Shown here: positions 28,640-49,298 of the stretch, one piece after another
How positions within the stretch are numbered: the first letter of the stretch is position 1
How the letters are laid out: each line of letters starts with the position of its first letter
Assembly (NCBI GenBank): GCA_001247695.2
Contig: LGRX02034578.1
Coordinates: 16,736-80,735, forward strand
Source of the DNA: Cymbomonas tetramitiformis
Taxonomy: Eukaryota; Chlorophyta; Pyramimonadophyceae; Pyramimonadales; Pyramimonadaceae
DNA length: 64,000 nucleotides
Direction: 5' to 3'
Notes under the pieces: model-generated
What the model was told of the DNA's origin: nothing
Databases searched by the model: none
Seen by the model: the letters and a program-made list of their open reading frames with translations, nothing else
Made by a program: the position numbers and the translations under genes

Positions 28640-28947
28640 TGGCCAATCATGCGCCCATCTACACGTTCAATGAACCTGCTACCTTAATTGTATGAAAAAG
28701 TGACGATTAGAGTCTAGGAAATATTCGGATCTGACGCCCACAGTATTCAATTTTCAATCGAACGACAACCTGATTTTTGATTAGACGTCTAGGAATCTTT
28801 CGAGAAATAGGTACCTATGTAGAGTTCAGTGATTCAGTCTGTCTTGTGTCTCAGCATTTAGTCGCGGTTTTTTCTTTGAACGTAGTTGCGGCCCCCCTCG
28901 CGCCTGGCAAAGCCTAACGTGAGCACGTCACCGGAGCGAGGGGGGCT

Positions 28948-31585: not shown

Positions 31586-31987
31586 CAAGGATGGTAATTA
31601 GTTTGAAAATCGTAACCTATTACAAACTAATTAGCCGATTCTTCTAACTAATATGATTATAATTAGTTACAACCCCCAACCGATATGATTGTAATTATGC
31701 ACATTCTCCAAACCTATTAGGTTACCTATTAGTAGACTACTGCAACCTATTTGATTAGTATTCTTACAGATTTCAAACCTATTAGGTTAGATGCTTATTT
31801 CCAGTGAGAACCTATTTGATACTAATTAGTTCAGCTTGGCAACCTATTGTGTTAGTAATTTCGGAGCTGCACAACCTATATGATAACAGGTTTCAAGACT
31901 AATTAAACCGGTTTGAGACTACAACTAAGCAAATAAGGTAGGCAGGAAAACACATGCACTGTGGCAAGTCAAATTAATACTTAGCAC

Positions 31988-32767
31988 TCACTCGCAGCAA
32001 TCACTGATTCTAACCCTGAGCATATGCTCCAAAGTGTCCTCCTCAGTGTTTTTTCGCAGGTCGTCATGCATTCTGCCCGCTGCACTAAACGTCCGCTCAA
32101 CACCCGCAGTAGTTGCAGGGCATCCTAAAAACTGAAGAGCCATGCGGTAAACATCAGGCAGGTCTTTGGCTTTTGCGTTCCACCACACCATCACGTCAAA
32201 ACCGTCCTCGTTAGCTTCTTGGGGCAAGGAAAGATAGCTATCCAGCTGATCTTTCTTCACAACAGGTGTGCTAGCCCCCGTTTTTTTCCTCAAGAAAGAT
32301 GCCTCACCAAATGAACGGGGATCGGAGGCTTGCACAGCAGGTGAGCGGGCAGCCTCGGCAGCCACGGTGGGCTTGAAGTTGGTCCATGCAGTTCTCAAAA
32401 AGCTCATGGCCCGATCACGCGTCATGTTGCCACCGTCGTAGATGTTGCAGCCGTCGAAGTCCCAGTTTTTAAAGCGAGGATCCAGAAGCGTGGACACGAT
32501 GTAGTCCTCTAGGATGGACATGCTCAAGTCGTTCACCCACCGTTGGACGAACTCGTCGTGCATGGCCTCGCGACCAGTGCGCACAGCAGGTATTAGACTA
32601 GAATGTCGAAGTACCGATCCATCGGCCAACACCAAGTCCACAGTGGGATCCAGTTCGCACTCGATGAGGTAGGCGGTCATGGGTAACACCAACGACATTG
32701 TGACATACTTGGTGCCCTGGATGATCCTGGTGTAGTCATACACCGGCTGCAAAACTGGAAGCTGTAG
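31988..32767 (-). CDS. hAT transposase, C-terminal exon with dimerisation domain
   Basis: The exon reads DYTRIIQGTKYVTMSLVLPM and ends with the hallmark hAT C-terminal domain: VMVWWNAKAKDLPDVYRMAL, FLGCPATTAGVERTFSAAGR, then LEHMLRVRI. The acidic motif with Glu in GVERTFSAAG includes the last catalytic residue of the RNase H-like fold. An intron acceptor GATGCCTACAG near 32,767 and the donor GCG/GTACGT near 32,914 join it to the preceding exon, so the part of the frame upstream to 32,827 is probably intronic. The encoded enzyme would cut and paste elements with the CAAGGATGG ends. Confidence 0.8.
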   Translation of the reverse strand, partial: LQLPVLQPVYDYTRIIQGTKYVTMSLVLPMTAYLIECELDPTVDLVLADGSVLRHSSLIPAVRTGREAMHDEFVQRWVNDLSMSILEDYIVSTLLDPRFKNWDFDGCNIYDGGNMTRDRAMSFLRTAWTNFKPTVAAEAARSPAVQASDPRSFGEASFLRKKTGASTPVVKKDQLDSYLSLPQEANEDGFDVMVWWNAKAKDLPDVYRMALQFLGCPATTAGVERTFSAAGRMHDDLRKNTEEDTLEHMLRVRISDCCE

Positions 32768-32914
32768 GCATCCCCACGCGAACACTGAGCATTCGTTGTA
32801 GCTAATAAAAGATATAAAATATTTCACAACATGCTACCAGCCGTTTCACCCTTTACCTACACTGCACAACCACTGAAGTCAAGGCGGCTCAAACATGAAG
32901 AAACGTCAACGTAC

Positions 32915-33394
32915 CGCGTGCTGGATGGTCTGCCAATCCGTCAGGTCTAATTGGAAGTCACGATAAGTGGATCCGACGTCGTCAGTGCTCATCTTTAACC
33001 GAAGGGACTCCACGTCGAACATCTGCAATGCCGTTTGCTGGGGCGGAAACCACTCCCACTGGAGAAAGATGCTATTCCAGCGAATAGCTACGGAACGTGC
33101 TGGCTGAGTCGTTGGGAGCTGGTACTTTTTTTGGCAGCGATGGAGGCAAGACAGCCCAAGGGGAGATCGACGGAATAGGGCGGCTATCCCCTTGGTCTTG
33201 GTATGGACTTTGTCGATGGCAGGGACCTTCAGGAAGGCCAAGACGCATCTCTGTCCGACATGGCAAGGGCAAGGGGAGGTCTCAAACTCAGATAACCCCT
33301 TTTGAACATTGCTTGCCCCATCGGCGACAGCCTTGTGCAAACAGTCGCGAACTGTATCGACTGCCTGAGCAGCCTCTGACCCAGAAGAGGCAGT
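32915..33394 (-). CDS. hAT transposase, central exon
   Basis: It contains VADGASNVQKGLSEFE followed by CPCHVGQRCVLAFLKVP, the segment around the second catalytic Asp and the CxxH insertion region of hAT transposases, then RSVAIRWNSIFLQWEW. The coding continues upstream of the first Met as AAQAVDTVRDCLHKA. A possible acceptor (GGGTCAG, about 33,394) has the phase needed to join the BED exon. The block with the first catalytic Asp (roughly 150-200 residues) was not found between this exon and the BED exon, so this copy is probably defective. Confidence 0.7.
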
Positions 33395-33917
33395 GATGAA
33401 CTTGTAGGAGGCAGTACTAAACCTCTACTTGACAGTGACTGTGAAACTACTTGTGGATCATATATAGTGCAAGGTTCTATATTATGCACTATATAAGACT
33501 AATCAAGCTATGTCGATTCTTAGGAACTATGTCCAGACTCAGTGCATATATTTGCAGTAAGAATTAGGTATTATATTGACTTTTGCCATGCGGCTGTTTT
33601 ACTCTAGAAATCTCAACTGTTTCTTTGGCCTTGGCCATTACTTATTCACTCAGCTCTCTGAGGTAATCCTAGTCAGCATGGCCAAGTCTCATCAACCTAT
33701 CATATGCTTGTACTACATTATCATGCAGTATGATGTGCCAGTATTCTACATGTCACATTATTACACAGTACAGTGGTACTGTGTACTCCCATATAAGGGG
33801 GGTCTCTTCCTCAACAGGGGTCTCGGGCGCTAATGCTGTAAGGCGCGTATGACACTTCTGGCATGTATGACATTGCTGAGTCATCCGCGCATGACACCGT
33901 GTGTTGTCCTAGCACAA
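33395..33917. other. 3' flank of the gypsy element, LTR candidate unresolved
   Basis: The minus strand downstream of the purine tract starts TGTGCTAGGACAACACACGG, a plausible TG-starting 3' LTR, and continues AT-rich to the hAT exon. I could not find the same sequence next to the primer-binding site near 46,316, so the LTR pair is not demonstrated. It includes three TATGACA-like repeats at 33,848-33,893. Confidence 0.35.
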
Positions 33918-33931
33918 CTCCCCCCCCCCTT
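33918..33931 (-). promoter_or_regulatory. Polypurine tract of the gypsy element
   Basis: The minus strand reads AAGGGGGGGGGGAG between the end of the pol ORF (33,973) and TGTGCTAGG. Its position and all-purine composition match the plus-strand primer of LTR retrotransposons. Confidence 0.6.
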
Positions 33932-33972
33932 CAGGTGGGAAGCGTCCTCGCTTGTGCTTAGATGCACAGTCG

Positions 33973-36900
33973 TTAGGCTGATTCGGAGCCCATGGTGTCC
34001 CACTCGCTGTCGTCGGACATCACTGGTGGCGGCGTAGGGCTGTACTCCGGCATCAAGGTCACCGGCTCCTCGTCAGCTTCTTCCGGATTAGCGCAGACTC
34101 TTTCATCGTTGAGACCTGTCTCATTTTCATCTCTCCAAAGCAGCTCCGCTAGGTATTCACACACCGCTGCGATTGCCCCCACGGGTTGTTCCACCGGTAG
34201 AGAGCTGAATAATTGTTTAAGCAAGGCTGCGGGGATGCCATACACGTGCCATCCAGCTCCCATGCCTGGTCTAGGGTCGCCCGACACGCTGCTGGCGGAG
34301 CCGCTCTGCGCCATCTTCTCGTGCCGCCCATAACGGCGTTTGAAGTCGCAGGGGTTTTCGGGGTCGCAAGACTTCAGAGTGGCGATAGGCGCGTTGGTCC
34401 AGAAGTGGGTGGGCTTCTTGTAGGGCATACCATACTTACAATACGTAGCCAGATGCGGAGGTGGCAACCCTTGCATGCATCGGCGAGTGTGTAACCCATG
34501 AGGAGCTCGGCCACGCGGGTTCTCGATGAAGTAGAAGCTCGGCTGAAGGTACTTGATGATCTCCAGCGTTCTCCGCACTTGTCTGTCAGCACCACGCAAG
34601 TTTCGTATCCCTACCGTTTTGGCTTGGCTATACTCCGTGCATGGAGGGCTCGCCCAAATGACGTCAAAGTGCTTGGGCGAGAACTGCCGATAGTCCCAGT
34701 GCAGGACGTTTTCGCAGTGAGTGGGCTTCCATCGGTTCTGGATGTCCACCGAGACTACCTCACACCCAGGAAACTGCTTGCTGAACTGTCGTTCGACGGA
34801 GCCTGTGCCACAAAACAACACCAAGATCCGTATTGGGCGTCGAGACGGCTGTAGACGTGCCGCTCCTCGACCTGGTCCTTGGGATGGCATGAAACTGGTG
34901 GACGACACCGTCGCGAATGTGCCCACCTCGTCGTCAGCCCGTTCTTCCGGGATCCACGCCATTCCGCCCGCCTGTAACTCTTCAGGATCCGTCAACCATA
35001 TCGCTCCTGCTGACTCCTCGCGTTTGCGAGTGACTCTACTCTTTTCACGTTCTTGCCTCTTGGCCTCGACCTTCTCGAACTCCTGAAGAGCGCGGTTAGG
35101 TATCCCTTTTCGGCCAACTCCATCGAATTCGAGGTCCTCGCGAGTTTTCCATTCATTCTCGGAGCGCGGCATACCTACCCATTTGACCATGTACTCCGTC
35201 CATGTCCGCCCGCTACGTCTCCTCGTGCGTGACCTCTCAATGCACTCCACCGCCATCTCCTTACGACCGCTCACGTCCACAGGGGGAGGCGGAATCTCCG
35301 CACTCCTGTCCGCGAACTTGTCCTGGCCCGACTCCACTGGGGTGAGTCTATCCACGGTGAAGACGTCGTGCACCTTCCACTGTGGTGGTAGCTTCAGGCG
35401 GTAAGCCGCGGGGGCCCCTCGGTCCTCGGTGGCGAGCTCCATCTGCCGGTCGCTGTGGAAGGCCTCCAGCACCTCCATCGGACCCAGGCGCTTCTTCAGC
35501 AACTTCTTGTGTAGGCCCCGATCCCCGGGCTGGGTGAGATGCGTGGCGTCCACCCACACCATGTCACCTATTGCGTACCGGCGAGCGCGATGGCGAGCAT
35601 CATACTGGGCCACTTGCTGCTGCTGAGCTACCAGCAACCTATCGCGAGCAGTCTGCAACTGCTGAACAAACTGCCGGGCGGTCTCGTGGGCCGTGCCTTT
35701 CTTCACGACGTCCCCTCTCCCCCCCTTGGCGCGGCCCCTACGAGAGGCCAACGCAGCTTCTACGAAGAAGTCGAGCTGCGACGCTGGGGCATGCCCATAG
35801 CAAAGCTCGAAGGGTGTGAATCCAGTAACCGCGGACCTGGAGTCGTTAATGGCGTACTCCACCGGGGTGCACCACAAATCCCAGTCTGTCTGGTTTGCGT
35901 CAACGTAGGCGCGCAACATGCGCTCCACCGTGTGGTTTGTGTGCTCCGCTTGACCGTCTCCTTGTGGATGGTACGGCGTAGTGGAGGCCACCTGCACCCC
36001 CATAAGGCGATGCAACTCCATATGAAAGGCGTCACGGAAGCGAGAGTCCCTGTCACAAACGATCTTCATGGGAGCACCGTGCAGTCGCCAAACATGGTCG
36101 AAGTACATTCGTGCCACTTGCTCAGCGGAACTGTCAGAGTACAGCATGGGGACCACGTGCACCATCTTGGACAACTTGTCCGTGAACGTGGCGAAGGCGT
36201 CGTAGCCCCGCTCCGTGCGCGGCAGACCTGTGACGAAGTCAATGCTCACCACCTGCCACAGCCTGACCGGGACCTGGAGGGGGTTCAGCTGGCCATCCGG
36301 ATAGCTGTTCCTCGGGCGGGTCTGCTGGCATATCAAGCACGAGCGGGTCCAGTCGGTGACGTCTTTGTTCATGCGAGGCCACCAGAACCGCCGCACTATC
36401 CGAGCAAGAGTCTTATCTCGTCCGGTGTGTCCCGCCGCGGGAGACTCGTGCGCTTCACGCATGACTATCTCTCGAAGGGGAGAGTCGGATGACAACACCA
36501 GCTGGTAGCGTCCCTCCGCGATGCGCCAGATCATGTCGTCAACCATACGGAAGGTGTCCGTGCGCTGGTGCGGGGCGGCTAAAAGCTCTTCCTTTAACAT
36601 CGTGAGGTAAGGGCTACGTTCGTACTCCGCGCGTAGTGCTTTCACGAACTGGCATGCCTTCAGTGGTCCTTTGGTTGCGCGTGCCTTGGCCGCTGGCCCT
36701 GACGTGACCATAGGCTCGCTTGCACCTTGAGCGGCGGGCGCACGGGCACTCTTCGCTCGAGGCCGAGTCCGGCTGGCCGCTGGCGCCCACACCAACAGCA
36801 CGGGCCACCGCAGCGCTGGTCGGCCTCCATCTGGTGACTCAAACAAGCATGTAGGGTGACCCTTGGCATCCTTGAGGTCGAACACCTTGACCACGTGCAG

Positions 36901-39900
36901 GCCGTACTTGGGCTGGATAAGGGTGCGCCAGGACGCGTCATAGTCCGGCAGTAGGAACATCGCCGACGTGTTCTCTGGGTCGGCGCGCCACTCAGCCATA
37001 AAGTGGCGTAGGATCCTCTCAATGAGGTTGCTATCCTTGGTGTAGGGGGGATTGCACCAGACGTGCTTTCCCCGCCATTGCTGCTTGAGGCACTCCGTCC
37101 AATAGGTGTCCACCTGGCGGTTGACGCCCATGGAGTCACAACACGCGTCCACGTCGAACGGGCCGTACTGCGCTGAGATCTCTTCGAACTTCTCCTTTAC
37201 CAGTTTCCAGTCCTGCCGGTCTACCACGTTATCGTAGTGGGAGCTTGACGCGGGAGGGGAACTTTGTTTGCTGGGAGGGGAAGGACTAAGGGGAGTTGAG
37301 GGGGCTGGAGAGGGGGCTTGCTCCGGTTGCGAGCGAGAGCGAGTAGTGACGCCCGCAAGGGTGGCTTCATGCAAGGCGCGCTCCGCGGTGTGCAACGTCT
37401 CAGCTGCGTCTTCCCACAGGTCGGGGGTTTCCACCCAGGTGAGCCCATTCAGATGAGTGAGCTCCCCAACGACCAACGGGGGGCTGACCGGAGGTACAGA
37501 CTCGTCTTCAGAGTCGGAGTAATCAAACGTGGAGTCGAGCACCGAGATGGGGTCTTCAAGGGTCTTGACTTTAGCAGGCTTCTCGGACGGCTCTTCGTCG
37601 GTGTCGTCCTCGTCGATTGCACCGAATACTGAGGTGGGATCGGCGGGGGTTGAGCTCTCAGCCGACTCCCTTGGCACACTCTGACGAGGCTCGTCTGTGT
37701 CCCGGTCGACCACGCCCTTCTCCTTGAGCCCCTCTCTGGCGGATGATTGCTTGTAGTCCGGTCGTCTGGATTGGGCGTCCGGAACTACTAGGCATCGGCC
37801 AGGTACGTGCTCCATTTGGTGCACGCCCACTTCCACCAAGTCTTCATACCAGCGTGCCTGGCGTCGACTCAGCTCCCGAGCCGGCGCGAAGAGCCACTGC
37901 AAGGGTTTGTGGTCACCCATGAGTTTGAAGTCGGTGAATATAAGGTAATGCCTCCACGTCACTGTGGTGCAGTGGTGGATGGCGCACAGCTCCCGCTCCC
38001 CAGCGTGGTAGTTCTGCTCGGCCGAGGAGAATTGCCTGCTCTCGAAGGCCAACGGCTGAAGACCTCGTCCCAGGTCTTGCATCAGCACGCCTCCTAGTGC
38101 GACCGCACTCGCGTCGGTCTGCACGCAAAATGGGCGAGACCCATCGGCTGCTGAGCGCTGGTCCGGTAGGGCGAGGATTGGTGCTGAAATCAATGCTGAC
38201 TTCAATCGTTGGAAGGCTTCTTTCTCCTCCTTGCCCCAAGTCCATGGCACTCCCATCTTCGTGAGGCGAGTGAGAGGGTGGGCAATGTGAGCGAAGGACT
38301 GGATGTACCGCCGGTAAAAGCCACACATTCCAAGGAATTGGCGCACGTGGGTGACAGTCTCGAGCTCCGGCCAGTCGCGAACCGAGGCAACTTTGTCGCG
38401 TTGGGGGCGACAACCTTCCTTACTGCACACATGGCCAAGGAAGCGTACTGCTCGCATGCACAACTTCAACTTGCTCCGCTTGAGGTATACTTTGTGCTGG
38501 CGACAGGCCGCTAGTACAGCTCGTACATGGCCGACATGCTGCTCAGGTGTGTCACTGAAAATCATGATGTCGTCCACGAACACTCTGCAGAAGGGTAGGT
38601 GTCCGAGGTACTGCGTCATCATTCTTTGCCACGTGCTCGGTGAGTTGCTCAGTCCCATAGGCATGACCAGCCACTCATAAGCTCCGAAATGGGTGGTCAT
38701 GGCTGTCTTCTCGATGTCCTCCTGTTCCATGGGAACTTGCCAGAATCCCCACAAGGCGTCTGCTGTGGAGAAGACGGTTGCTCCTTGTAGGTCATCGAGG
38801 AGGGTTTGTACGTCAGGAAGAGGGTACTTGTCCTTGACCGTGATCTCATTTATCGACCTGTAGTCGATAACCAAGCGCAACTCCTTAGGGTTGCTCGGCT
38901 TCGGCACCATAAGTACCGGACAACCCCAGGGAGACGCCGATGGACGGATGTACCCCTTGGCCAACAGCTCGTCAAGTTGTGCACGAAGTTGCCGAAGCTC
39001 CTCTTGCGACAACTTGTAGTTACGCCGATGTAGCGGCTGCCCACTCCAGTCGGATCGCAAGCGAATGTTGTTCTTGTAGTCGCGGCTTTGGACGGAGTCA
39101 GGCAGCTCCGTACATATGACGTCCCTGAACTCCTCCTCAAGGTCGCGCAGCTGTTGCCATATCTCCGGGGACACTGTCTCGTCAATCTCGTCCGGCTCCT
39201 CCGCTTCCATGGCATGGGGCTTGGGCGGCGGTGTCGGTGACGGTGGTTCCTCGGCCACAGGAGCGGCCTGCTCTTGAGATAAACCTTCAGTATGGGGCTT
39301 CTCGTCGCTCCAGCGCACACGCTTGCGTCGCGGCCGACGTTCGCGGAGTAAGCGCCTTCCCTGCTCCAGCGCGGCTGCGGCTTCGGCATGCCAGGTGGGT
39401 GGTTTCCCTTGCGCGTGGTCGTCGATTGCTTGGGCACGTACGTGCTCAGGTAATAAAGCAAATGCTCCCAAAGCTTCGCGCTTGCTCTGGAAGAACCCCA
39501 GATGTAGGTTGTTGGATGGCGCATTGTCCGCCGGGGGGCCAACAGCACCCTCCAGCGCGACCACGTCAAAGTTTTGTGGGCGGGTGGACTCCACTGTTGC
39601 GTACACCTTATCCAAGTGGTCCTCGTCACTGGTGCCTGGGCTAGGCCGCACAGATTCCCGGAGGAGTAGAGCGTCCTCGGCTTCGGAGTCAGTGTCTGAC
39701 GCGGACATCAGCGCAGGCGCGTCCGTCTCACCCAGATCCGCTCGGGAGGAGTCCATGGCGCCCGCGACTTGGGCGTCTTGCTGCTCAGAGCTAGACGTGG
39801 CGCAACGCTCGGACGAAGCGTCCCTAGGCTTGGCGTTGGTCTCGGCGTCGGTCTCTTCATTACAGGCGACCGCCCCGAAGGTGCCGTCGGGTGCTAGGTA

Positions 39901-41727
39901 CACCACGAAGGCACACTCATCCTTAGATTGGAGGGCTCGAAGGTCCTTGCGTACCCTTTTGGGGTCCAACAAGACTCCTTGTACCAACGCCATGGCCTTA
40001 TCCTTGGGTCTTGAGGGGTCTGGCGTTCCCGGAGAGCAGCCTGTAATGACCACTCTCTTGCTTCCAGAACCAAACCGGATGGAACCCCATCGGGAGTAAT
40101 CCAGGGTGACTGGGGAGTGAGAGGCCAGCCAAGGTCCTCCAAGGATAATATCCACGCAAAGATCAATGGGCATCACTCTGAGCTCCAATTGCTTGACGTA
40201 CAACCCCTTGGTGGTCTCTGCTTGCAGTCGAGGACGGACGCACGTGTTGACATCGTACGACGCGCCGTCAGCTACTCGCACTCGCATGGGGTTTTCGTGA
40301 GGTCGAGGCGTCAGGGAGGGAATGCTGCGTACAGTCTTGTCCGAGATAATGTTGGTGGAGCACCCACTGTCCACCAGCACCTTTACGCGACGACCGTTCA
40401 CGTACGCCCAGAACAACAACAAGGTGGGGGCCTTGGAATTGTTGATCTGTCGAGGTGGCGCTCGCGATGTTGATACAGCCGCCAAGAGATCACTCCAACC
40501 AGGGCTCATGTCCCCACTGTCGATGATGCTGTTGAGCTGGCATATGAAGGGGTCGTCCTTGGCATGAGGGTCGCCTAGGTCAGGAGGGTCGTCCATGTCA
40601 GAGTCCCATGGTAACTCGTAGGTGCCTGCATCGGCCAAGAGCCCTTGAGCGGTGGCGGTCTGCACCAGGTCCCTGGGTGGGTGATCAGGTGGGTACAAGG
40701 CCACTTGGATGACCTTGTCCTTCGCTGCTCGCGCCATATCATTCGTCGCCAAGTCACTTGCGTACTGGAGGAGTCCATCTTCTACTTCCTCTTGCGCTTG
40801 TTCCTTGGCTAAGATGTGCAGTAGCTCTTCGTCTATAGGAGAGTCCCGCTCCAAATATGGGAGGCCACTGGCATAATCCCGCTTAAGCTTCTCTCGTTGG
40901 CGAACCTTCTCCAGCCCACTGAGCCACCTCCTCCTTGGTGCTCCTTCAGCTCGAGCTGCATGGGTCGGTGACAGCCATGGTCGGGGGCGGTCACTCCATG
41001 TGGTTGAGGTTGCCTCGGCAGTCGTGCTGCCGTTAGGTGAGGGCGTACGAGGTCGACGCCCAAGCTGGATGTCTTGACGTCGTCGTCGGTATTCTTGCAG
41101 CCTTTTAAGTTTGTTAAGGGCTGCGGGTAAGGGTGACCGAGCTCGAGCTTCTCGCTTGTTGGCGGTAACCGCGCTGTGCGTTGGTGACCGCGTGGGTCCT
41201 CGGCTGTTGCGTCGATGCCCGGCTCTCCAAAGCGGTGGGCTCGTGCTCCGCGGAGGTGTACGGGGCGGTGCAAGGTCCGTTTCCAGAGCCTTGATGGAGG
41301 ACCTCAAGCCCCGTGTGCCCACTTTGGAGCGTAAAGCGCTCGTCCCTTGCCCTCGGACAGCTCGAAATTGCCAACCTTGCAATGGTTGGCCCGTTGGCTC
41401 CAAGTGCACGCGGTAGCTCTCGGTCACCTTCAGGGTACGTCGGTGCCGTTTCTCAACGTGCTGGGAGTCGTCTGAGAGGTCCTCGCTCGTACACACTGGA
41501 GACTTGGCTTCCTTGCGAAGGCGAGCTTCGACCACTTGACGCTCCGGCGCGGGAGGAGGGCTAGTCATCGCCCGCGAGGGTAGCATGTTGAGCTCATCGG
41601 AGTCTAGGTATCCTGTGCAAGGAGCACTCCGCCTTTGACGTCGACGGGCTCTTCTCCACTTCTCCCGCAACTGCTGCTCCGAGAGGTAGGAGGGGGGCTC
41701 ATCGCGGGGATGTGGGCCCGAGCTCAT
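33973..41727 (-). CDS. pol: Gypsy Pol: PR-RT-RH-Dam MTase-IN-chromodomain-C5 MTase
   Basis: An intact 2,584-aa polyprotein. Residues 1-440 are basic and low-complexity. Aspartic protease: KVLVDSGCSTNIIS, Asp453. Reverse transcriptase about 880-1,070 with FSTADALWGF and FVDDIMIFS (Asp1052/1053). RNase H about 1,195-1,325 (TDAS, EREL, PDAQSRR). Then a Dam-like N6-adenine methyltransferase, about 1,505-1,640: DVDACCDS and WCNPPYTK (Asn1559-Tyr1562), followed by LLPDYDASW, as in phage-type Dam. Integrase: HHCC finger about 1,760-1,805, core with Asp1830, Asp1892 and Glu1928 (spacing of 35 between the last two). Chromodomain about 2,155-2,215 (YMVKWVGMPRSENEWKT). C5-cytosine methyltransferase at the C-terminus: FCGTGSV (2,305-2,311), SPPCTEYS with Cys2363, IENPRG, and CKYGMPYKKPTHFWTN, of the compact phage/virus-like type. 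The start ATG overlaps the Gag stop. Proteolytic release of separate enzymes is expected. Confidence 0.95.
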   Translation of the reverse strand: MSSGPHPRDEPPSYLSEQQLREKWRRARRRQRRSAPCTGYLDSDELNMLPSRAMTSPPPAPERQVVEARLRKEAKSPVCTSEDLSDDSQHVEKRHRRTLKVTESYRVHLEPTGQPLQGWQFRAVRGQGTSALRSKVGTRGLRSSIKALETDLAPPRTPPRSTSPPLWRAGHRRNSRGPTRSPTHSAVTANKREARARSPLPAALNKLKRLQEYRRRRQDIQLGRRPRTPSPNGSTTAEATSTTWSDRPRPWLSPTHAARAEGAPRRRWLSGLEKVRQREKLKRDYASGLPYLERDSPIDEELLHILAKEQAQEEVEDGLLQYASDLATNDMARAAKDKVIQVALYPPDHPPRDLVQTATAQGLLADAGTYELPWDSDMDDPPDLGDPHAKDDPFICQLNSIIDSGDMSPGWSDLLAAVSTSRAPPRQINNSKAPTLLLFWAYVNGRRVKVLVDSGCSTNIISDKTVRSIPSLTPRPHENPMRVRVADGASYDVNTCVRPRLQAETTKGLYVKQLELRVMPIDLCVDIILGGPWLASHSPVTLDYSRWGSIRFGSGSKRVVITGCSPGTPDPSRPKDKAMALVQGVLLDPKRVRKDLRALQSKDECAFVVYLAPDGTFGAVACNEETDAETNAKPRDASSERCATSSSEQQDAQVAGAMDSSRADLGETDAPALMSASDTDSEAEDALLLRESVRPSPGTSDEDHLDKVYATVESTRPQNFDVVALEGAVGPPADNAPSNNLHLGFFQSKREALGAFALLPEHVRAQAIDDHAQGKPPTWHAEAAAALEQGRRLLRERRPRRKRVRWSDEKPHTEGLSQEQAAPVAEEPPSPTPPPKPHAMEAEEPDEIDETVSPEIWQQLRDLEEEFRDVICTELPDSVQSRDYKNNIRLRSDWSGQPLHRRNYKLSQEELRQLRAQLDELLAKGYIRPSASPWGCPVLMVPKPSNPKELRLVIDYRSINEITVKDKYPLPDVQTLLDDLQGATVFSTADALWGFWQVPMEQEDIEKTAMTTHFGAYEWLVMPMGLSNSPSTWQRMMTQYLGHLPFCRVFVDDIMIFSDTPEQHVGHVRAVLAACRQHKVYLKRSKLKLCMRAVRFLGHVCSKEGCRPQRDKVASVRDWPELETVTHVRQFLGMCGFYRRYIQSFAHIAHPLTRLTKMGVPWTWGKEEKEAFQRLKSALISAPILALPDQRSAADGSRPFCVQTDASAVALGGVLMQDLGRGLQPLAFESRQFSSAEQNYHAGERELCAIHHCTTVTWRHYLIFTDFKLMGDHKPLQWLFAPARELSRRQARWYEDLVEVGVHQMEHVPGRCLVVPDAQSRRPDYKQSSAREGLKEKGVVDRDTDEPRQSVPRESAESSTPADPTSVFGAIDEDDTDEEPSEKPAKVKTLEDPISVLDSTFDYSDSEDESVPPVSPPLVVGELTHLNGLTWVETPDLWEDAAETLHTAERALHEATLAGVTTRSRSQPEQAPSPAPSTPLSPSPPSKQSSPPASSSHYDNVVDRQDWKLVKEKFEEISAQYGPFDVDACCDSMGVNRQVDTYWTECLKQQWRGKHVWCNPPYTKDSNLIERILRHFMAEWRADPENTSAMFLLPDYDASWRTLIQPKYGLHVVKVFDLKDAKGHPTCLFESPDGGRPALRWPVLLVWAPAASRTRPRAKSARAPAAQGASEPMVTSGPAAKARATKGPLKACQFVKALRAEYERSPYLTMLKEELLAAPHQRTDTFRMVDDMIWRIAEGRYQLVLSSDSPLREIVMREAHESPAAGHTGRDKTLARIVRRFWWPRMNKDVTDWTRSCLICQQTRPRNSYPDGQLNPLQVPVRLWQVVSIDFVTGLPRTERGYDAFATFTDKLSKMVHVVPMLYSDSSAEQVARMYFDHVWRLHGAPMKIVCDRDSRFRDAFHMELHRLMGVQVASTTPYHPQGDGQAEHTNHTVERMLRAYVDANQTDWDLWCTPVEYAINDSRSAVTGFTPFELCYGHAPASQLDFFVEAALASRRGRAKGGRGDVVKKGTAHETARQFVQQLQTARDRLLVAQQQQVAQYDARHRARRYAIGDMVWVDATHLTQPGDRGLHKKLLKKRLGPMEVLEAFHSDRQMELATEDRGAPAAYRLKLPPQWKVHDVFTVDRLTPVESGQDKFADRSAEIPPPPVDVSGRKEMAVECIERSRTRRRSGRTWTEYMVKWVGMPRSENEWKTREDLEFDGVGRKGIPNRALQEFEKVEAKRQEREKSRVTRKREESAGAIWLTDPEELQAGGMAWIPEERADDEVGTFATVSSTSFMPSQGPGRGAARLQPSRRPIRILVLFCGTGSVERQFSKQFPGCEVVSVDIQNRWKPTHCENVLHWDYRQFSPKHFDVIWASPPCTEYSQAKTVGIRNLRGADRQVRRTLEIIKYLQPSFYFIENPRGRAPHGLHTRRCMQGLPPPHLATYCKYGMPYKKPTHFWTNAPIATLKSCDPENPCDFKRRYGRHEKMAQSGSASSVSGDPRPGMGAGWHVYGIPAALLKQLFSSLPVEQPVGAIAAVCEYLAELLWRDENETGLNDERVCANPEEADEEPVTLMPEYSPTPPPVMSDDSEWDTMGSESA
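41724..41727 (-). promoter_or_regulatory. ATGA stop-start overlap between gag and pol
   Basis: The minus strand reads ATGA at 41,727-41,724: ATG starts pol and TGA ends gag. Such overlaps allow termination-reinitiation, as in some LINEs and mycoviruses. Gypsy elements more often use frameshifting or a single ORF. No other Met-independent path into pol is evident. Confidence 0.8.
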
Positions 41728-44700
41728 TGGGACTTGGAGGGTACTCCGAGCTCGAGGGAGTCCTCCGCGGCAAAATCCATTAGTTCCTTTGGCAACACCG
41801 CGTTGAGCACGTCGCAGTATTCATCCGTTTCCACTTCGTGCATGACCATGTCCAAAGTTTCAGCCAGAAGTGCTTTGGCCCACTCCTTCTTACGAAGAGC
41901 AGCCTGTGGGCACTCTCGAGCATAGTGCTCTTTGCTTTGGCACAACTTGCAACCAGTGTACTCCGGGGAGCCCAGACGTTGCCCAGTAGGAGTTACACCC
42001 GCGGGACGATCTTCGGCTAGAGCTAGTAGCTCCTCCGAGACCTCCACCGCTGCCAGTAGCTGCACTGGCGCTCTCCTACTCGTCGCGTTGTTCAAATGCA
42101 ACTCCGCCTCAATGGCGTATTCCAGCGCTAGGCGTCGACTGGCTGGAAGGGCGCGGTCGAGGAGGATCAAGGGGGTTCCCTTCCGCTCTGCAATCTCGAA
42201 CGCCTCCTTCCGTACCTCCGCGGATAAGCCCGAGAGGAAGACGTCCAGGAGGTCGGATTCCGGAACCGGTGTGGTGAGCTCGTGTGTCGCCAACATGGTC
42301 ACTACGCGATGGGCTAGATGCAGTCCATCCCAAAACTCGCGCACTTTGCGCGGTGTCGCCATGCGTCCTTGAGTTTGGCGTACTCGGCGTAGGAACGAGC
42401 CCAAGGTGGCCATTTCACTCTTCAGCGGCACGATCAGCTTCGCCAGCGGTACAATGACCTTCTCAAGGTTCAACGACTTGTCCGCCTCGGCATCCAGGAG
42501 AACCCCTCGCAGCTCCGTTCCTTCGGAGCTAGGCGTAGGGAAGCAATGCTGGGTGATCTCCTTCAACAAGATATGCACCGAGAGAATCGGCTCTCCGAGC
42601 TCGAACGCTCCGTTGGGCACGTTGCACGGGGTGTTCATCGCGAGGAGCACCACTGGAAGGGCTAAGCACCTGTCGAACTCGTCCACGAACCGCAACAGCG
42701 GGCCGAAGGGGTTCGTGGACCCTTCCAGCGGTGCTGAGTACAAGGACATGATGTCCTTCGCGGCCTTGAGGGCATATGAGTGCCTCGTGTACTCCTCCCT
42801 TTGCTGCCTGCCATCATTGTACGAGGACCTCCTACTCGAACCGAAGCTGTAGGACGTCTCATCGTCGGGTGGATCGTCACCGCCTCCGCCCCCGCCATGG
42901 CCGCGACGTCCATCTCCAAGATTCCGCGAGGGGTCGCTAGGCGCGTCAGAAGTGGGGTCGCCAGGCGGCTCATTCCCCCCCCCTTGATGGCCACCGGGTC
43001 CTCCCGGGTCGTCACCGTCGTCATCACCATCGCCTCCACCGTCGTCGCCTCCGCCGCCCCCATTGGTCCCACCAATTGCTGAGGATGGCCTCGGGGTCAC
43101 TGAAGGGAAGCGGTCAAAGGCTCCCGGCCAAACTCCGCGCGTGCAATATATACACAACGGCAGGAATTGAGTGGTTTCCGACAAGTCTGAAAGAGCTGTA
43201 AGCCCGCAATTCCATATGGCTACAGGGGGCTGCGGGCTACGAGCGCATCTCGAGCACGGAACGTTGGACGTGCTGGACGCGACTTCGTCGTACACGCAAC
43301 AAACGATCGCCGTTCCCGCCAGAGGTGGTGAAGGAAGTTGAGAGGCCGGGGCTTCGGAGACCGGCGGTCCACACCCAGACGCTAGGTCATGGTCTCGGTA
43401 CCTTCTTGCTACGTCACAGAACATGCGTTCCGCTTCCATCTTGCCCACGTGGCCAGGTAAGTGCTCCTCCACGTGTGCACGGATAGCGGTAACGGCTGGC
43501 ACACTAATGGACCTCCAATCCATTTTGGCTAGGCGGTCATGCACACTCGTGGGGGAAGATGCACGCTTGGAGGCGTCCTCCTCGAACGTCACGCCTTTGT
43601 GGCCCCGTACGTCCACAGTCGTGGCTGACGGGGGCACCATCAGAGCTTCGTGTTCAGCTTCTTGAGCGTCACTTGTGACGGTCGCATAGCTCGCGGGGGT
43701 ATTAGGTGGTTGTTCTGGCCGTGAGTGCGCTCGTCCGTCAGCGGCTTCAAGGGCGGCTTGCACCACTATCTTGCTCTCCGCCACTTGTTGCTCCAGCAGT
43801 CGTTGCTCTCGAGCTGCTTGGTCAAGTTGCTGGCGTTGCTCTTCCGCGGCGCGCTGCATTTCTCGAAGTTGTTGGTGATGACGTGCAGCTTCCTCCGCCT
43901 GCGATGCTACAGCTTGCTCATGCTGATGCGAGACAACGTCCGCGGCATGCTGCATGCGCGCTATCTGCTCCTCAGCAGATTCGAGAGCGGCCCGTCGCGC
44001 TTCTTGGCACACCGTGGTGCGGAGCTCCTGATGCATCCGGGTTGCTTCCTCCACGGCATTGTGCATGTCCATGCGCAACGCTGTGAGCTGCGCTTGGTGC
44101 GCAGTGGCCGCATCTAACGCGACTCGTTCGGACTCCTCTTGCAGCTCTCGTAGTTGCCGCTCGTGTCGCGTGACTTGAGCTTGGCGCCGCCGTTGGCGTC
44201 CACCCTTTCGCCGAGAGCTCCTTGATGAAGAGGTGTGCGAGGCGTCAGAGGAGAGCGCTTCAGAAGAAGATGTTTGACACGATGAAAGTGTGGACTTCTC
44301 CTCACTGGACGAAGAGGTGGAGTCGTACATCAGTTTACCTTCGTCACTGCGACGTCGAGCCTTGGCGAGCTTACGCTTGGCCAACTTCTGCCGCTTCCGC
44401 TCCTGCTTCGCCACCTCCTTCTCGTGGGCTAACTCCGTCAAAGCCTGGACACGTACAGCACGTTCTCGTTGTGTGGGTCGTGGGGCGGATGAAGCTTTTG
44501 ATCGAGGTGGTTGTGGGGCGGAGTCAGCGGAATGAACGTCTTCCTCATCGATCGTGGAGTCATCTTCAGACGACAAGACGCCATAGGGGTTGCGGCTAGG
44601 TACAGATTGTGCGCCATGCTGTTGAACACTTGCTCCCAAGGTGGTTGTACGCCTTAGAGTCTTTATCACCTCCTCGACGCTCACTCCCAACCGCACCAGC

Positions 44701-46064
44701 CTTGCAGGCCGGTTGGCTGGGATGGTCGTGACGAGTGGTCGTGCAGAGTGGAGGTGATGATAATGGTGGTTTGCTGAGGTAACATGCGACAGAAGGAGTC
44801 CACGAGATGGGATCACGCGTTGCTCTCCACTCTTCGTTCTCAGCTGCACCTCCCATGTGATTGCAGCGATGGAGTCTTCCTGGCCACACAGGCGGCGAAG
44901 ATGTCTACGCAAGGTCGCCCATTGCTTCGGGGTCACGTCAGGCGTGTCCGTCAGAGCTGACCACTCGTGGAGGACTTCGCGCTTCACATGTTGTTCACGC
45001 TGGACCGCAAAGGTGGTGCACTTGGAAGCGAAGTCCACGGTAGCCTTCCACGCTTTCATACACTTCCTCACGTAGAACTCGGACCGGGCTATGTTGCACG
45101 CCGTGATTTCGAGAGTGATCTCTTTTACACGACGTTGTTCTTCTCGCCATGCACTCAAGAGCCGGGACGCCAATCGTGAACTTGCGTGTCCAGCAAAATC
45201 TTGCTTTTTGCGTTGGACCTGGTTCTTGCGGTGAACTCGCTCGTGCCATGCTGTAAGGGAAACACGCATGCGCGCGAGACGGGCACGTAGGTGCCATGTC
45301 GTAAGTGCAGATGAAACACGCCCGCTGAGCACTCGTGCTGTCCAAGTACTCCACCAATTACGCAATGCACATACCGCTAGAATATCCACTGCTACAGCTT
45401 GGCGTGCCAGCCTGACGCTCCACTCGTTCACGCTTGACAAACCGCGCTCGCCACTTGGAGGAGCACTTTCACGCCTAGGCGTAAATATGTTGCTCTCATG
45501 GGTCTGGTTTCCAACGAGATGCTCTGGTGCCAAAGGCAAATGGTCAACTACAGCTTCGCTATGAGGAGATGATCTCAAATTATGAGCGGTGGCTATAGCG
45601 ACCGTGTTGAGCTCCTCGAGAGCTGGTTGGCTACGTTGTAGACCTGAGGCACCTGCACCCCCTGCACGCTGCTGGGGTGTAGAGTAGCACTCAAACGTGC
45701 GTACCATGGAAGATGCCAGCCCAGGAGAGTCACGCGAGCTGTCGGGGAAATTCGTGGGCGTGGCAGGCAGCGATGCTTGGGTGCGACGTTCCTCTTGAGG
45801 TAGAGGCGCGCTCGCCAGAAGCGCGTATTCGCCCTCCAGAGAGCGTTGTACTGCTCCCCCCCCCCTGCTGCCCCGCCGCGCCCCGGCCGGCGCCTCCCAT
45901 TCCGGGACAAAGTACGGGGTGGGCCCCAAAGCCCCAAGCCCATCCCGGAGCTGAAACACCCGGGCCGAGCTAGAGAGCCCGGAGGGCCCAGAAGCAGCCT
46001 CCGCCACCCCCGAGCGCCGCTGAGGCGGAACATACAGCGAAGAAGCTCGCCGTGAAGAGGACAT
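41724..46064 (-). CDS. gag: Large Gag-like protein with coiled coil and CCHC zinc knuckle
   Basis: An intact 1,446-aa ORF, far longer than usual Gag proteins. Residues 225-370 hold Trp-containing helical repeats (NWWSTWTARV, ALTTWHLRARL, SLTAWHERV, LLSAWREE, MKAWKATV) that resemble Sfi1-type repeats. A Ser-rich acidic segment (570-625) is followed by a long Gln/Ala/Glu coiled coil (about 630-775). Residues about 920-975 carry paired Cys (CSRC, CIYC) that could bind zinc. A Gly/Asp-rich linker (about 995-1,065) leads to a capsid-like helical part with LKSEMATLGSFLRRVRQ and VREFWDGLHLAHRV, and a canonical zinc knuckle CKLCQSKEHYAREC at 1,372-1,385 (CX2CX4HX4C). It probably forms the particle and binds the element RNA. 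The Met at 46,064 is the first in frame, 240 bp after the primer-binding site. Confidence 0.85.
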   Translation of the reverse strand: MSSSRRASSLYVPPQRRSGVAEAASGPSGLSSSARVFQLRDGLGALGPTPYFVPEWEAPAGARRGSRGGGAVQRSLEGEYALLASAPLPQEERRTQASLPATPTNFPDSSRDSPGLASSMVRTFECYSTPQQRAGGAGASGLQRSQPALEELNTVAIATAHNLRSSPHSEAVVDHLPLAPEHLVGNQTHESNIFTPRRESAPPSGERGLSSVNEWSVRLARQAVAVDILAVCALRNWWSTWTARVLSGRVSSALTTWHLRARLARMRVSLTAWHERVHRKNQVQRKKQDFAGHASSRLASRLLSAWREEQRRVKEITLEITACNIARSEFYVRKCMKAWKATVDFASKCTTFAVQREQHVKREVLHEWSALTDTPDVTPKQWATLRRHLRRLCGQEDSIAAITWEVQLRTKSGEQRVIPSRGLLLSHVTSANHHYHHLHSARPLVTTIPANRPARLVRLGVSVEEVIKTLRRTTTLGASVQQHGAQSVPSRNPYGVLSSEDDSTIDEEDVHSADSAPQPPRSKASSAPRPTQRERAVRVQALTELAHEKEVAKQERKRQKLAKRKLAKARRRSDEGKLMYDSTSSSSEEKSTLSSCQTSSSEALSSDASHTSSSRSSRRKGGRQRRRQAQVTRHERQLRELQEESERVALDAATAHQAQLTALRMDMHNAVEEATRMHQELRTTVCQEARRAALESAEEQIARMQHAADVVSHQHEQAVASQAEEAARHHQQLREMQRAAEEQRQQLDQAAREQRLLEQQVAESKIVVQAALEAADGRAHSRPEQPPNTPASYATVTSDAQEAEHEALMVPPSATTVDVRGHKGVTFEEDASKRASSPTSVHDRLAKMDWRSISVPAVTAIRAHVEEHLPGHVGKMEAERMFCDVARRYRDHDLASGCGPPVSEAPASQLPSPPLAGTAIVCCVYDEVASSTSNVPCSRCARSPQPPVAIWNCGLTALSDLSETTQFLPLCIYCTRGVWPGAFDRFPSVTPRPSSAIGGTNGGGGGDDGGGDGDDDGDDPGGPGGHQGGGNEPPGDPTSDAPSDPSRNLGDGRRGHGGGGGGDDPPDDETSYSFGSSRRSSYNDGRQQREEYTRHSYALKAAKDIMSLYSAPLEGSTNPFGPLLRFVDEFDRCLALPVVLLAMNTPCNVPNGAFELGEPILSVHILLKEITQHCFPTPSSEGTELRGVLLDAEADKSLNLEKVIVPLAKLIVPLKSEMATLGSFLRRVRQTQGRMATPRKVREFWDGLHLAHRVVTMLATHELTTPVPESDLLDVFLSGLSAEVRKEAFEIAERKGTPLILLDRALPASRRLALEYAIEAELHLNNATSRRAPVQLLAAVEVSEELLALAEDRPAGVTPTGQRLGSPEYTGCKLCQSKEHYARECPQAALRKKEWAKALLAETLDMVMHEVETDEYCDVLNAVLPKELMDFAAEDSLELGVPSKSQ

Positions 46065-46300
46065 TGAAAAAGTCGTTTAAGATGGTGGAGAAACGCAGCA
46101 ATCTGATTCTGAAAAATCTGCCAGCGCTTCCGCCGTACAGGCGTATAGTATTAAGTGCGAAGACGCAGGATCCCAACAGCAAATAAACAACTGCCGCTGC
46201 CAAATCTCAATCAAAGCTTTCCAGCAAACTCGAGGAGGTAAGATGAAAACAAATTGAGCCAAATTGGTTAACGATCGGCCCACGGAAGTCAAAGCAACGT

Positions 46301-46315
46301 CGCAGCGCGATACCA
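46301..46315 (-). promoter_or_regulatory. Primer-binding site, initiator-Met tRNA type
   Basis: The minus strand reads TGGTATCGCGCTGCG. Its first seven bases match the common plant retrotransposon site TGGTATCAGAGC, complementary to the 3' end of initiator tRNA-Met. It lies 237 bp upstream of the gag start. The preceding bases (CCCTGAG) do not show the CA end expected of a 5' LTR. Confidence 0.5.
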
Positions 46316-47526
46316 CTCAGGGCTAGCCCCCTGCCAAGAACGCCGAAGTCGCATCACGCCAATTCCGAGCCCAAGAAGAACATCGCGCACACATCTCAAT
46401 CGCAGAGGGTAGTGCAGACGAAGATCTCGCGGAAAACGCCGACTAACCGGTACAATTCTCGAGAAGAATTAACGGCGCAAAGCTGCCAGCGAGCAAGAAA
46501 AACGCTGAGGCGTTGACCAGTGCGTCAGAGCGCAAATATGCCCAGCAGCCAGAAGTAGATTCCCAAATCCCGCAAAGCCGGTCTCCAAGGAAGAATTACC
46601 ATTCCCGATACAATTCGCACCGTGAATTTGGCAGTCGCGCACGCCAATGGAACGCGGAAAGGATAACGCAACGAGGCCAAGGACTCAAACAGCTGTTACA
46701 CTGCACACTGGACAAGTCGCAATTCTCCAATCTCCACAGATCACGACGCCACGAAGAATTAAGTCTCCATTGACAATTGAAAGATAAGATACAACGTCAA
46801 AAAGCGCCACGGAGGCCAGCAAGAGAAAAAACGACTGCATTTTTGAGTTTGGGCGCTTTTAGGCCCTAAAAGCGCCCGATTTCGGGAATCCAGTGTAAGC
46901 CATCATTTCGCAACGCGCCGAAGAAGAAATTCAATCCAGAGTGGTCACAAAAGACAACTTATTTGAGCATCGAGCACCAACCAGCCGAAAGGGACTGAAG
47001 CGAAGCCGCTGGCCAGTGAGGCCCGGGGTACCCGTAACGCACTAGCAGTGCGAGAGCTCAAATATCATCCGAAGAATAGGAGAACACATAAATTCGCCCG
47101 AAAAGCCATAATTGTAAATCAGAAAAAGCACAGAACTTGCCAACACCGATGTGTGCAAGAGCCGATTTCGTCGCGGACTCTATCTCAGCGCCAGTGTGAG
47201 CCACCTCGCCGAAAGGTACAGCTCGAACCAACACCTCGGAAATGGACGTGTCACCAGCTCGCCAGAAATACAGCAAGATTCCAAGCAGCGCGATCCCATT
47301 CTCGGACCAAATATCAATCGCTGCGAGTGAACAAACAGAAAGTCAAACGTTGTTTGATGAAAAAAACAATCAACCATAGTAGGGTATAATATTCACGGCC
47401 GTACGAGAAAGATACACCGAGGTGAAAGATACTTATACAGTCAAACAGTAATATACTAACAGTCAACGACCCGCACAGGGTAAACTATTCACATCCGGAA
47501 AATGTGGAAGCAGCGGTTGACAGTAC
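46316..47526. other. 5' flank of the gypsy element: LTR candidate and intron remnant
   Basis: About 1.1 kb upstream of the primer-binding site. It is rich in GAAGAATT- and CGCAAC-like phrases and has no gene. It should contain the 5' LTR, but no copy of it was recognised at 33,4xx-33,9xx. The part nearest 47,526 begins with the hAT intron donor GTACTG. ORFs of 70-110 codons on both strands have no recognisable family. Confidence 0.35.
46851..46877. other. 13-bp perfect stem hairpin upstream of gag
   Basis: GGGCGCTTTTAGG and CCTAAAAGCGCCC flank a single central base. On the minus strand it is about 560 bp upstream of the primer-binding site, within the presumed 5' LTR or flank, and could affect transcription or RNA folding of the element. 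Confidence 0.5.
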
Positions 47527-48031
47527 CTGAAGAGGGGAGGACACCGCCTGCCACGTGTCGAGCCACTTTTTGCCGATCGTGAGCCAAGGCCCTGCCTGCT
47601 TTGACACAAAGCTGGCGCACAACATTGTTCTTCGTGGGCATGGAGTAGGCCCCTTCAGACGCGAACATCAAAACATCGGAGAGTTCAGTGTCACGTTCCG
47701 GGAGGCTCAGCGGACGTGCCCGCTTGCACAGCCAGTGCACGACTTTTCGGGTCAGCTGGTCCCGCTTGCCAGGCGGCCAAGAAGTAGAGCTCTTCGAGAT
47801 CACGCTCTGGACACGGGGATCATCGGATCCGCCCCGGGGATCGGCCCCATCAAGGAAAGCCTCAGCTTCCAGTTCAGCAAGGTGACTCTTGTGGACGTAG
47901 GAGAGGTGCTGTCGGGCATTGGTGGTGTTGGTGCAGGAGGCAAGCCGGGCATTGCAGTTCTGGACGGCGCATCTGAGACCGATGGGAACGTTGGTGGTGG
48001 GGCAGATAATCTCGTTGAACAGCGACCAAAC
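47527..48031 (-). CDS. hAT transposase, BED zinc-finger exon
   Basis: The exon is bounded by an acceptor CTTCCTTGCAG (intron ends at 48,032) and a donor TCTTCAG/GTACTG (exon ends at 47,527). It starts VWSLFNEIICPTTN and contains CAVQNCNARLAS, then ARQHLSYVHKSH: the aromatic, Cys2 and His2 positions of a BED finger that binds transposon ends. A helical N-terminal hAT region follows (QLTRKVVHWLCKRARPLSLP, then KNNVVRQLCVKAG). It joins the chromodomain exon in phase 0. The gypsy retrotransposon now lies in the sequence downstream of its donor. Confidence 0.75.
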
Positions 48032-48230
48032 CTGCAAGGAAGCCACCAACAGTACATGTTCGTTATTACTGTCAACGACGGAAGCAGACCAAATTAACAA
48101 ACAGATATCAAACTCGATGAAGTTTAACACAGCGCTCGCACGCTAATCTCGCCGAAAATCCTTTTGAGAATACTACTAAAAGAATTGAGAATTCCACAAC
48201 AGCACCGACACAAGCAAGTCAACAACGAAC
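48032..48230 (-). other. Intron between chromodomain and BED exons
   Basis: A 199-bp interval with GT (GTTCGT) at its minus-strand start and a pyrimidine-rich CTTCCTTGCAG end. Splicing joins Lys codon AAG to Val codon GTT without changing frame. The related small hAT at 23,337-24,874 has an intron at the equivalent point. Confidence 0.7.
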
Positions 48231-48755
48231 CTTTGCAGCCCTACGACCTCGCATGGCAGGTCGAAGGATCTCGTCCGGCTCATCATCATCATCTTCATCG
48301 CTACCGACGACATTGTTAGCGGACGGGTGGGTATTTTCAGGCGCAGCGCTACTGGCGGCAGCAGCAACTACAACAGGGGTGTGGTCGTTGACAGGGGTTT
48401 TGCGTTTGCGTTTGCCGAGCTTCAGTGGTTCCAGTTGAGAGCGCTCCTTTCTGAAGGTGGCTATGTCGTCCTCCAGACCGGCTAGGTTCTCGATGGGCTC
48501 CCAAGTATCATGCGCTTGACTGTACCCTTTCCACCGGATGAGCCACTCCTCAACCGTGCGATCGCCTACTTTAGACAATCGTTCCGCTAAAATACTCTCA
48601 ACATCGTAGATATCATCTGCGTTACCGCGATGGTCAAATTCGTGATTGGGCGTGCGCTTGATCGGCCCCTTGCCGATGGGTGGCAGCCTGCTACTATTGC
48701 TCGAAGGTTTGCTTTTCTTGGCTGCCCGCTTACCGTTACCGCCCATGATGAACAA
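48231..48755 (-). CDS. hAT transposase, N-terminal chromodomain exon
   Basis: 175 codons from the Met at 48,755 (a second Met, MGGNGK, is three residues on). It has a basic N-terminus, then a chromodomain at about 47-105: DDIYDVESILAERL, EEWLIRWKGYSQAHDTWEPI, ENLAGLEDDIATF. The Tyr/Trp/Trp cage positions are present, so methyl-lysine binding is plausible. A Lys-rich run, an Ala/Ser linker, an acidic stretch (DEDDDDEPDE) and a basic end follow, then the splice donor. The layout matches the other hAT in this window, so chromodomain, BED finger and catalytic domain probably form one transposase that reads histone marks. Confidence 0.85.
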
Positions 48756-49298
48756 CTAGAGCTTTGACTGGGGATGCTGGGTGCTTTATAGTCTTCAGCA
48801 TGGTGGTGCTGGTCGGTGGTGAAGCATTTCAACATTTCAAAATCTGACCATAATATCGGACGGCGCAATGTCAGGGCATGGGCATTCTACCAATCACCGT
48901 GCACCGTGCCGACCTAACCGATTTTTCGCTTTTTGCGGGCAACCAATCCGATTAATAGTGTATGCGATTTATTTGCTGTGGAATTTTGAAAACCGATTGT
49001 ATTGCCGATTATTGCCCACGATAACCGATTCGATTGCGGTATGCGATTTGCCACAACCTATCCGATTAGTAATTAGTCCACGCTGGTAATCGATTCGGTT
49101 CTAATTAGGCCACGCTCCAAACCTATACGGTTTATAATTAGTTCCGAGTAGAAACCTGTTCGATTGTAATTAGTCACGAATCGCAAACCTATTTGATTGG
49201 TAATTCTCGATCGGGGAAATCGATTCGATAGGTGTATACACTATTAAATCGATTAATCATAATTCCTCGACTAATCGATTACCATCCTTGTTCACAAT

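Follow-up and report, generated by a model that had tools for sequence, protein, structure and literature searches.

On sequence evidence, a 64,000-nucleotide stretch of contig LGRX02034578.1 of the green alga Cymbomonas tetramitiformis (hereafter the window) contains a chromodomain-bearing Ty3/Gypsy retrotransposon with long terminal repeats (LTRs), whose Pol polyprotein is predicted to encode both a Dam-like N6-adenine and a C5-cytosine DNA methyltransferase domain. An original prediction, made from the letters alone, had proposed that one Gypsy Pol carries both types of enzyme, with Dam between RNase H and integrase and the C5 enzyme after the chromodomain. Both regions exceed the Pfam cut-offs, Dam (PF05869) at residues 1503-1572 with 38.3 bits against 28.1, and DNA_methylase (PF00145) at residues 2300-2405 with 23.5 bits against 22. 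The Pfam domain order of the polyprotein is the proposed one, namely aspartic protease, reverse transcriptase (RT), RNase H, Dam PF05869, integrase (IN), chromodomain and C5 methylase PF00145, and the residue numbers given for the NPPY (1559-1562) and PPC (Cys2363) motifs are correct. The span of Pol was also exact in an open reading frame (ORF) check; the element itself is larger, with a Gag-like ORF at 41724-46064 and a 3' LTR ending at 33403. The domains of Pol are as follows.

33973..41727, minus strand: Pol ORF with both predicted methyltransferase domains, 2584 amino acids (aa) (ORF and Pfam)
40132..40407, minus strand: aspartic protease, residues 441-532 (Pfam)
38428..38907, minus strand: reverse transcriptase, residues 941-1100 (Pfam and PDB sequence match)
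37834..38139, minus strand: RNase H, residues 1197-1298 (Pfam)
36772..37224, minus strand: predicted Dam-like N6-adenine methyltransferase domain, residues 1502-1652, with low-confidence linkers on both sides (Pfam and structure model)
37042..37053, minus strand: NPPY motif, residues 1559-1562 (motif read)
35773..36486, minus strand: integrase, zinc-binding and core domains (Pfam and PDB sequence match)
35119..35292, minus strand: chromodomain (Pfam)
34207..34839, minus strand: predicted C5-cytosine methyltransferase domain, about 211 aa (Pfam, PHROGs and structure model)
34639..34647, minus strand: PPC motif, Cys2363 (motif read)
34516..34524, minus strand: ENP motif, residues 2402-2404 (motif read)

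The Pfam matches in Pol comprise RVT_1, RNase H, Integrase_H2C2, Dam, Chromo (residues 2159-2201) and DNA_methylase, while the integrase core rve stays below its cut-off (21.3 against 32.6 bits). In PDB sequence searches the integrase region resembles solved retroviral integrases, and Ty3 Gag-Pol is the top match of Pol. The protease-RT-RNase H-IN order of Ty3/Gypsy elements is present, and the position of the chromodomain 3' of the integrase assigns the element, by domain order alone, to the chromodomain-bearing, chromovirus-like Gypsy elements. A DIRS identity is not supported, the integrase being of the H2C2 and retroviral type and not a tyrosine recombinase.

The Dam region matches phrog_111 of PHROGs (E 5e-12), and its predicted structure is a methyltransferase fold; in NCBIfam, both the Dam and the C5 regions were matched only below the cut-offs. 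A protein of C. tetramitiformis (P0030) is 100% identical across the 171-residue Dam query, and many further protein matches carry the same species name. When viral contigs were scanned with the Dam domain, no relative turned up. The nearest fold to the modelled Dam domain is PCIF1, an RNA-cap adenosine methyltransferase, and this raises the possibility, unlikely in our judgement, that the adenine domain targets RNA, modifying a cap-proximal or internal adenosine of the element's genomic RNA, and that DNA is marked by the C5 domain only. Against this, all 10 members of the Dam set match PF05869 (best E 7.5e-12), and the annotated phage hits among the matches listed bear names of DNA or N6-adenine methyltransferases. 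Moreover, PCIF1 may simply be the closest solved fold, because a profile of the 10 members gave no significant match among PDB sequences.

The C5 region matches phrog_757 (E 7e-17) and models as a methyltransferase fold, with DNMT3 among its fold matches. Cys2363 of the PPC motif is presumably the catalytic residue, as in the family at large. SPPC and ENP are invariant across 76 aligned C5 sequences; in the same sequences Cys141 and Cys165 never vary, and Cys171 and His180 hardly do (numbering of a 221-aa piece). The domain is only about 211 aa long, and the conserved Cys/His residues of its short C-terminal part possibly form a small metal site which replaces the large target-recognition domain.

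The combination of both enzymes extends well beyond the window. A query with the C5 domain by itself returned 27 proteins, of which 24 are Gypsy polyproteins, with identities down to 36%, and in 23 of these 24 a Dam domain was recovered by profile. The remaining three comprise a fragment (P0029) and two Copia-type proteins, P0027 and P0028, in which C5 is the only one of the two enzymes. In the two Copia-type polyproteins (PF07727) the C5 methyltransferase lies mid-protein, which places the same kind of enzyme in another class of element. Conversely, a Dam query returned 20 proteins, 13 with C5 (P0037 and P0043 as fragments) and seven without, in which the sequence stops before the C5 place or is rearranged at it. 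Trees were built from the 26 of 44 examined sequences, window included, with near full-length RT, RNase H, Dam, IN and C5, the other 18 being excluded. The domain order of the window is found in 23 of these 26; in P0014 the C5 domain is N-terminal, and in P0024 and P0025 it is N-terminal with Dam following IN. A PHD finger (PF00628) appears in the database listing for the dual-methyltransferase Gypsy proteins P0009, P0012 and P0013.

Tree distances of the core (RT-RNase H-IN), Dam and C5 correlate (Spearman 0.816, 0.826 and 0.870, each with none of 2000 permutations as high), and most groups are found in all three trees; long branches lead to P0014, P0015, P0016, P0024 and P0025. The three trees thus appear largely congruent, and because of this agreement it would be simplest to suppose that both enzymes were present before most of the dual clade split. 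All 26 full-length proteins keep PPC and ENP, and 22 of them keep NPP[YF]. The loss of the Dam motif from four proteins, with the domain otherwise retained, speaks for an explanation in which the domains are structural leftovers that aid folding or nucleic-acid binding and whose catalysis is now irrelevant. This we regard as very improbable in view of the motifs kept elsewhere, including the invariance of SPPC and ENP noted above and that of NPP across 24 Dam rows, an alignment from which the four decayed ones were excluded.

In the Cymbomonas assembly, used as search database (25745 contigs, 851.7 Mb), the best 150 of 7939 candidates for the C5 domain of the window family, counting the window itself, share 97-100% identity in C5, indicating at least 150 near-identical copies of this domain. 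An internal stop occurs in three of these 150, and 30 lie within open frames of 2599-2623 aa. A genome search with PF05869, in which 150 of 7257 candidates were scored, placed all 150 above the cut-off. From about 25 listed PF05869 places with open frames longer than 2000 aa, 20 were sampled as a second dual family, which has 55% identity to the window in Dam and about 50% in C5. Dam is present at all 20 loci; C5 is near complete at 17, partial at two (L166 and L167) and not found at one (L164). After copies of differing length were dropped, the per-site ratios of nonsynonymous to synonymous polymorphism (pN/pS) in this family were 0.14 for RT (n=20), 0.07 for RNase H (19), 0.07 for Dam (20), 0.21 for IN (17) and 0.17 for C5 (16), values which are biased downward, Dam most of all, because the 20 copies were chosen by Dam score and open-frame length. 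In one copy (C17946) the LTRs measure about 1.35-1.4 kb and are 92.8% identical, in an alignment that takes in some flanking sequence as well as a tandem array. The LTRs of this family (L172, L173, C17946) contain tandemly repeated units, each about 21 bp long and of the GGTTGCATGCTACAGAGGCCA type.

Taken together, the largely congruent trees, the low pN/pS of the sister family and the retained motifs are signs that both enzymes have been kept. The original prediction had argued for such selection from the intact motifs; the comparison of relatives bears this out for PPC and ENP and less fully for NPP[YF], and neither domain proved to be always decayed, though the Dam motif is decayed in the four proteins.

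As to the origin of the two modules, the same genome harbours DIRS-like loci (L001-L006) in which Dam stands beside RT or RNase H-like sequence together with a tyrosine-recombinase-like ORF, and these are the highest-scoring PF05869 matches of the genome. That ORF contains GHSFRRG, which we take to be a motif of such recombinases. Three DIRS-like pieces gave 52 bits for Dam, 23 and 26 for RVT_1 (below the cut-off of 29.6) and 12.9 for Phage_integrase (below 27.1); a further locus (L186) was grouped with them on its Dam sequence only. In an unrooted tree of 32 Dam rows, a branch with 100/99 support separates four phage Dam genes from the Dam domains of the DIRS-like and Gypsy elements. Approximately unbiased (AU) tests on a single clade of Gypsy Dam domains, C-terminal ones included, gave p 0.483.

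For the cytosine enzyme, the nearest non-retroelement sequences are small standalone proteins of about 200-210 aa with 38-49% identity (120 listed of 1546). Phage relatives number 12 records with 27-35% identity, and relatives on viral contigs occupy at least 583 of the 600 stretches listed. Besides the 26 retroelement domains, the C5 tree included 30 standalone proteins out of the 120 listed, 10 viral loci out of 130 and 4 prokaryote loci out of 13. Built, as all C5 trees here, without any eukaryotic Dnmt3 sequence, it placed all 26 retroelement C5 domains opposite the 10 viral rows, with a value of 97 in the SH-like approximate likelihood ratio test (SH-aLRT), the standalone rows and one prokaryote-labelled locus (L139) being intermixed. 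These relationships suggest that the donor was a small viral or microbial enzyme. The locus in question, on a contig of a 'Verrucomicrobiaceae' metagenome-assembled genome, was discarded as a bacterial donor, its C5 grouping within those of the retroelements; it is probably a mis-binned eukaryotic, algal-looking contig.

With regard to function, we give an even chance to the interpretation that the Dam-like and C5 domains methylate the element's own new DNA copy. Because both are encoded in Pol, they would, by analogy with Gypsy biology, be packaged alongside RT and integrase. The Dam part, travelling with RT-RNase H in the particle, would methylate adenines of the nascent complementary DNA (cDNA), and the C5 part, tied to integrase and chromodomain, would methylate cytosines of the cDNA and of the flanking DNA at insertion. 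New insertions would then begin in the host's own methylation state, and copies so marked may evade nucleases and recognition as unmarked DNA and settle into tolerated chromatin. Retrotransposon DNA methyltransferases (DNMTs), as de Mendoza and colleagues reportedly found, methylate CpGs de novo. The methylation of newly retrotranscribed copies is discussed in the same group's 2018 article (de Mendoza 2018, PMC5890265), and in the prasinophytes Micromonas and Ostreococcus active genes carry N6-methyladenine (6mA) instead of 5-methylcytosine (5mC) at their first nucleosomes (Romero Charria 2025).

The enzymes might instead be defensive, with modification serving as an immunity by which cell or element withstands nucleases and DNA viruses. 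Such a role was speculated for retrotransposon methylases by Morozov et al. 2019 (PMC6338049), both domains have phage relatives, the C5 domain has relatives on viral contigs as well, and the Cymbomonas genome is rich in integrated viral elements (PMC10675990). Still, a benefit to the host would hardly preserve genes in a selfish element across such divergence, and both enzymes lie inside the replication polyprotein and therefore point to action in cis, which makes the immune role quite improbable.

Methylation by the element of its own copies, and the retention of both enzymes, have to be weighed against several observations, to which the PCIF1-like fold and the sampling bias in pN/pS also belong. 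P0023 is a C5-bearing Gypsy polyprotein without Dam, and since NPP[YF] is missing from four of the 26 proteins (P0011, P0015, P0016 and P0024), adenine activity can evidently be lost. P0014 shifts position between trees, and P0006 and P0007 stand with the group of the window in the core and C5 trees and with the group of P0008 in the Dam tree. Young copies showed no excess of C>T changes at CpG, with 14 singletons at 399 CG sites compared with 44 at 1293 other C sites. Finally, the window copy is intact in its ORFs only; its 5' LTR was not found anywhere in the window, so that, as assembled at least, the copy lacks a complete 5' end and is probably not self-sufficient.

A broader picture, somewhat unlikely to be right in its entirety, would join these strands. 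An old and widespread Gypsy clade would act as a self-contained dual epigenetic writer, in which one polyprotein reads chromatin through a chromodomain or PHD finger, inserts DNA and writes 6mA, by which the copy stays expressible, and 5mC, by which it stays hidden. Gypsy and DIRS elements would have swapped the adenine module at the RNase H junction, the cytosine module would have come from a small viral or microbial enzyme, and retroelements may have written a large share of the methylation in an algal genome of nearly a gigabase.

The remaining parts of the element and its insertion site are listed below.

41724..46064, minus strand: Gag-like ORF, 1446 aa, with a weak CCHC zinc knuckle near its end, below the Pfam cut-off (ORF and Pfam)
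33918..33932, minus strand: polypurine tract directly before the 3' LTR (read by eye)
33403..33916, minus strand: 3' LTR, 514 bp, TG...CA (boundary from other copies and from hAT copies without the element)
31586..49290, minus strand: hAT DNA transposon hosting the retroelement, with dimerisation domain PF05699 and a chromodomain ORF (Pfam; ends by eye)

The retroelement spans the minus strand from 33403 to beyond 46064, and the stop of Gag overlaps the start of Pol through ATGA. Comparison of the window with itself detected no LTRs, and the 3' LTR emerged only through other copies: among 40 scored of 1561 candidate places for the junction, 24 hold the LTR only, 15 hold the hAT only and the window alone holds both. 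A composite in which the hAT carries the retroelement was accordingly rejected, as the hAT sequence at 15 of the 40 places begins right at the junction and lacks the element, and no scored place other than the window covers both. In the family, LTRs at both ends were found on contig C25323 (28686-29201 and 42622-43137, 13.9 kb apart), flanking a C5-bearing copy. Six strings of tRNA primer sites had no match upstream of Gag, in the region that lacks the 5' LTR. With a 533-bp LTR query (40 of 1469 candidates scored), 5' and 3' LTRs were inseparable, and the resulting pattern of one place per contig was not used. The hAT ends in 13-bp inverted repeats flanked by 8-bp duplications TTCACAAT at 31578-31585 and 49291-49298 (read by eye); its chromodomain-encoding ORF (48219-48755) lies upstream of the hAT transposase ORFs, and the retroelement is nested inside the hAT. 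A large inverted repeat of 79-92% identity pairs 28947-31586 and 49291-54510 with 55103-63113, and its right half shows, around 60430-60438, the insertion site without the hAT. A further integrase-like stretch lies at 2477-3155 on the minus strand (E 4e-15).

Retrotransposons are normally targets of DNA methylation. If the function proposed here is true, an element with both writer enzymes, kept as a pair in diverged relatives, inverts the picture of a host which silences its transposons and offers a natural system for the separate roles of 6mA and 5mC in a mobile element. It is directly testable, given many near-identical copies, a published Nanopore-based assembly and domains compact enough for separate expression.

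Each enzyme alone is already known in retrotransposons, Dam in DIRS elements and C5 in Gypsy, DIRS and LINE elements. The original prediction rightly named the captured cytosine enzymes, which are in print (PMC5890265), and omitted the Dam-type methyltransferase of DIRS retroelements, named in PMC5890265 and PMC6338049. A literature search of open-access PMC papers, preprints excluded, found no published description of both enzymes in one polyprotein, in line with the prediction that no such element had been described; as far as this search shows, what is new is the pair of Dam and C5 within one polyprotein. Morozov 2019 (PMC6338049) reports DAM- and DCM-encoding Ty3/Gypsy and DIRS elements, and its account of them mentions no polyprotein with the two enzymes together. 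In Cymbomonas itself, Burns 2015 (PMC5741210) reported scaffolds that encode a chromodomain, RNase H and a cytosine DNA methyltransferase and reach >10,000x coverage, which are very probably elements of the window type; that paper does not present them as one polyprotein, and 'adenine' has 0 occurrences in its main text. The 2023 genome paper (PMC10675990), with a long-read assembly of 914.3 Mb, mentions a chromodomain Ty3/Gypsy element, and 'methyltransferase' is absent from its main text.

The DIRS Dam elements, present as DIRS-like copies in the Cymbomonas genome too, likewise place PF05869 after RT-RNase H; unlike the window element, the DIRS-like loci are of the tyrosine-recombinase type and, in all five examined, show no C5 over the roughly 3 kb that lie downstream of Dam. 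SymbioDIRS-Dnmt3 and SymbioLINE-Dnmt of Symbiodinium (PMC5890265) also hold a methyltransferase within a retroelement ORF, but they belong to other element classes and are described there with a cytosine enzyme only. Small C5 methyltransferases of phages and viruses (phrog_757; Bacillus phage BM15, Haloferax tailed virus 1, Inoviridae) share the minimal C5 core at 33-35% identity, yet are standalone genes, unlike the Pol-embedded domain of the window. Another close parallel is KnitGypsy-Dnmt3 of Klebsormidium nitens (PMC5890265), which likewise joins Gypsy-type domains with a captured C5 methyltransferase, an enzyme under purifying selection (Ka/Ks < 0.2; de Mendoza 2018). That element has a Dnmt3-type enzyme and a DIRS-like repeat layout, with no adenine enzyme named in its description, whereas the window element combines a 211-aa C5 domain, nearest to small standalone, phage and viral enzymes, with a Dam domain and ordinary LTRs.
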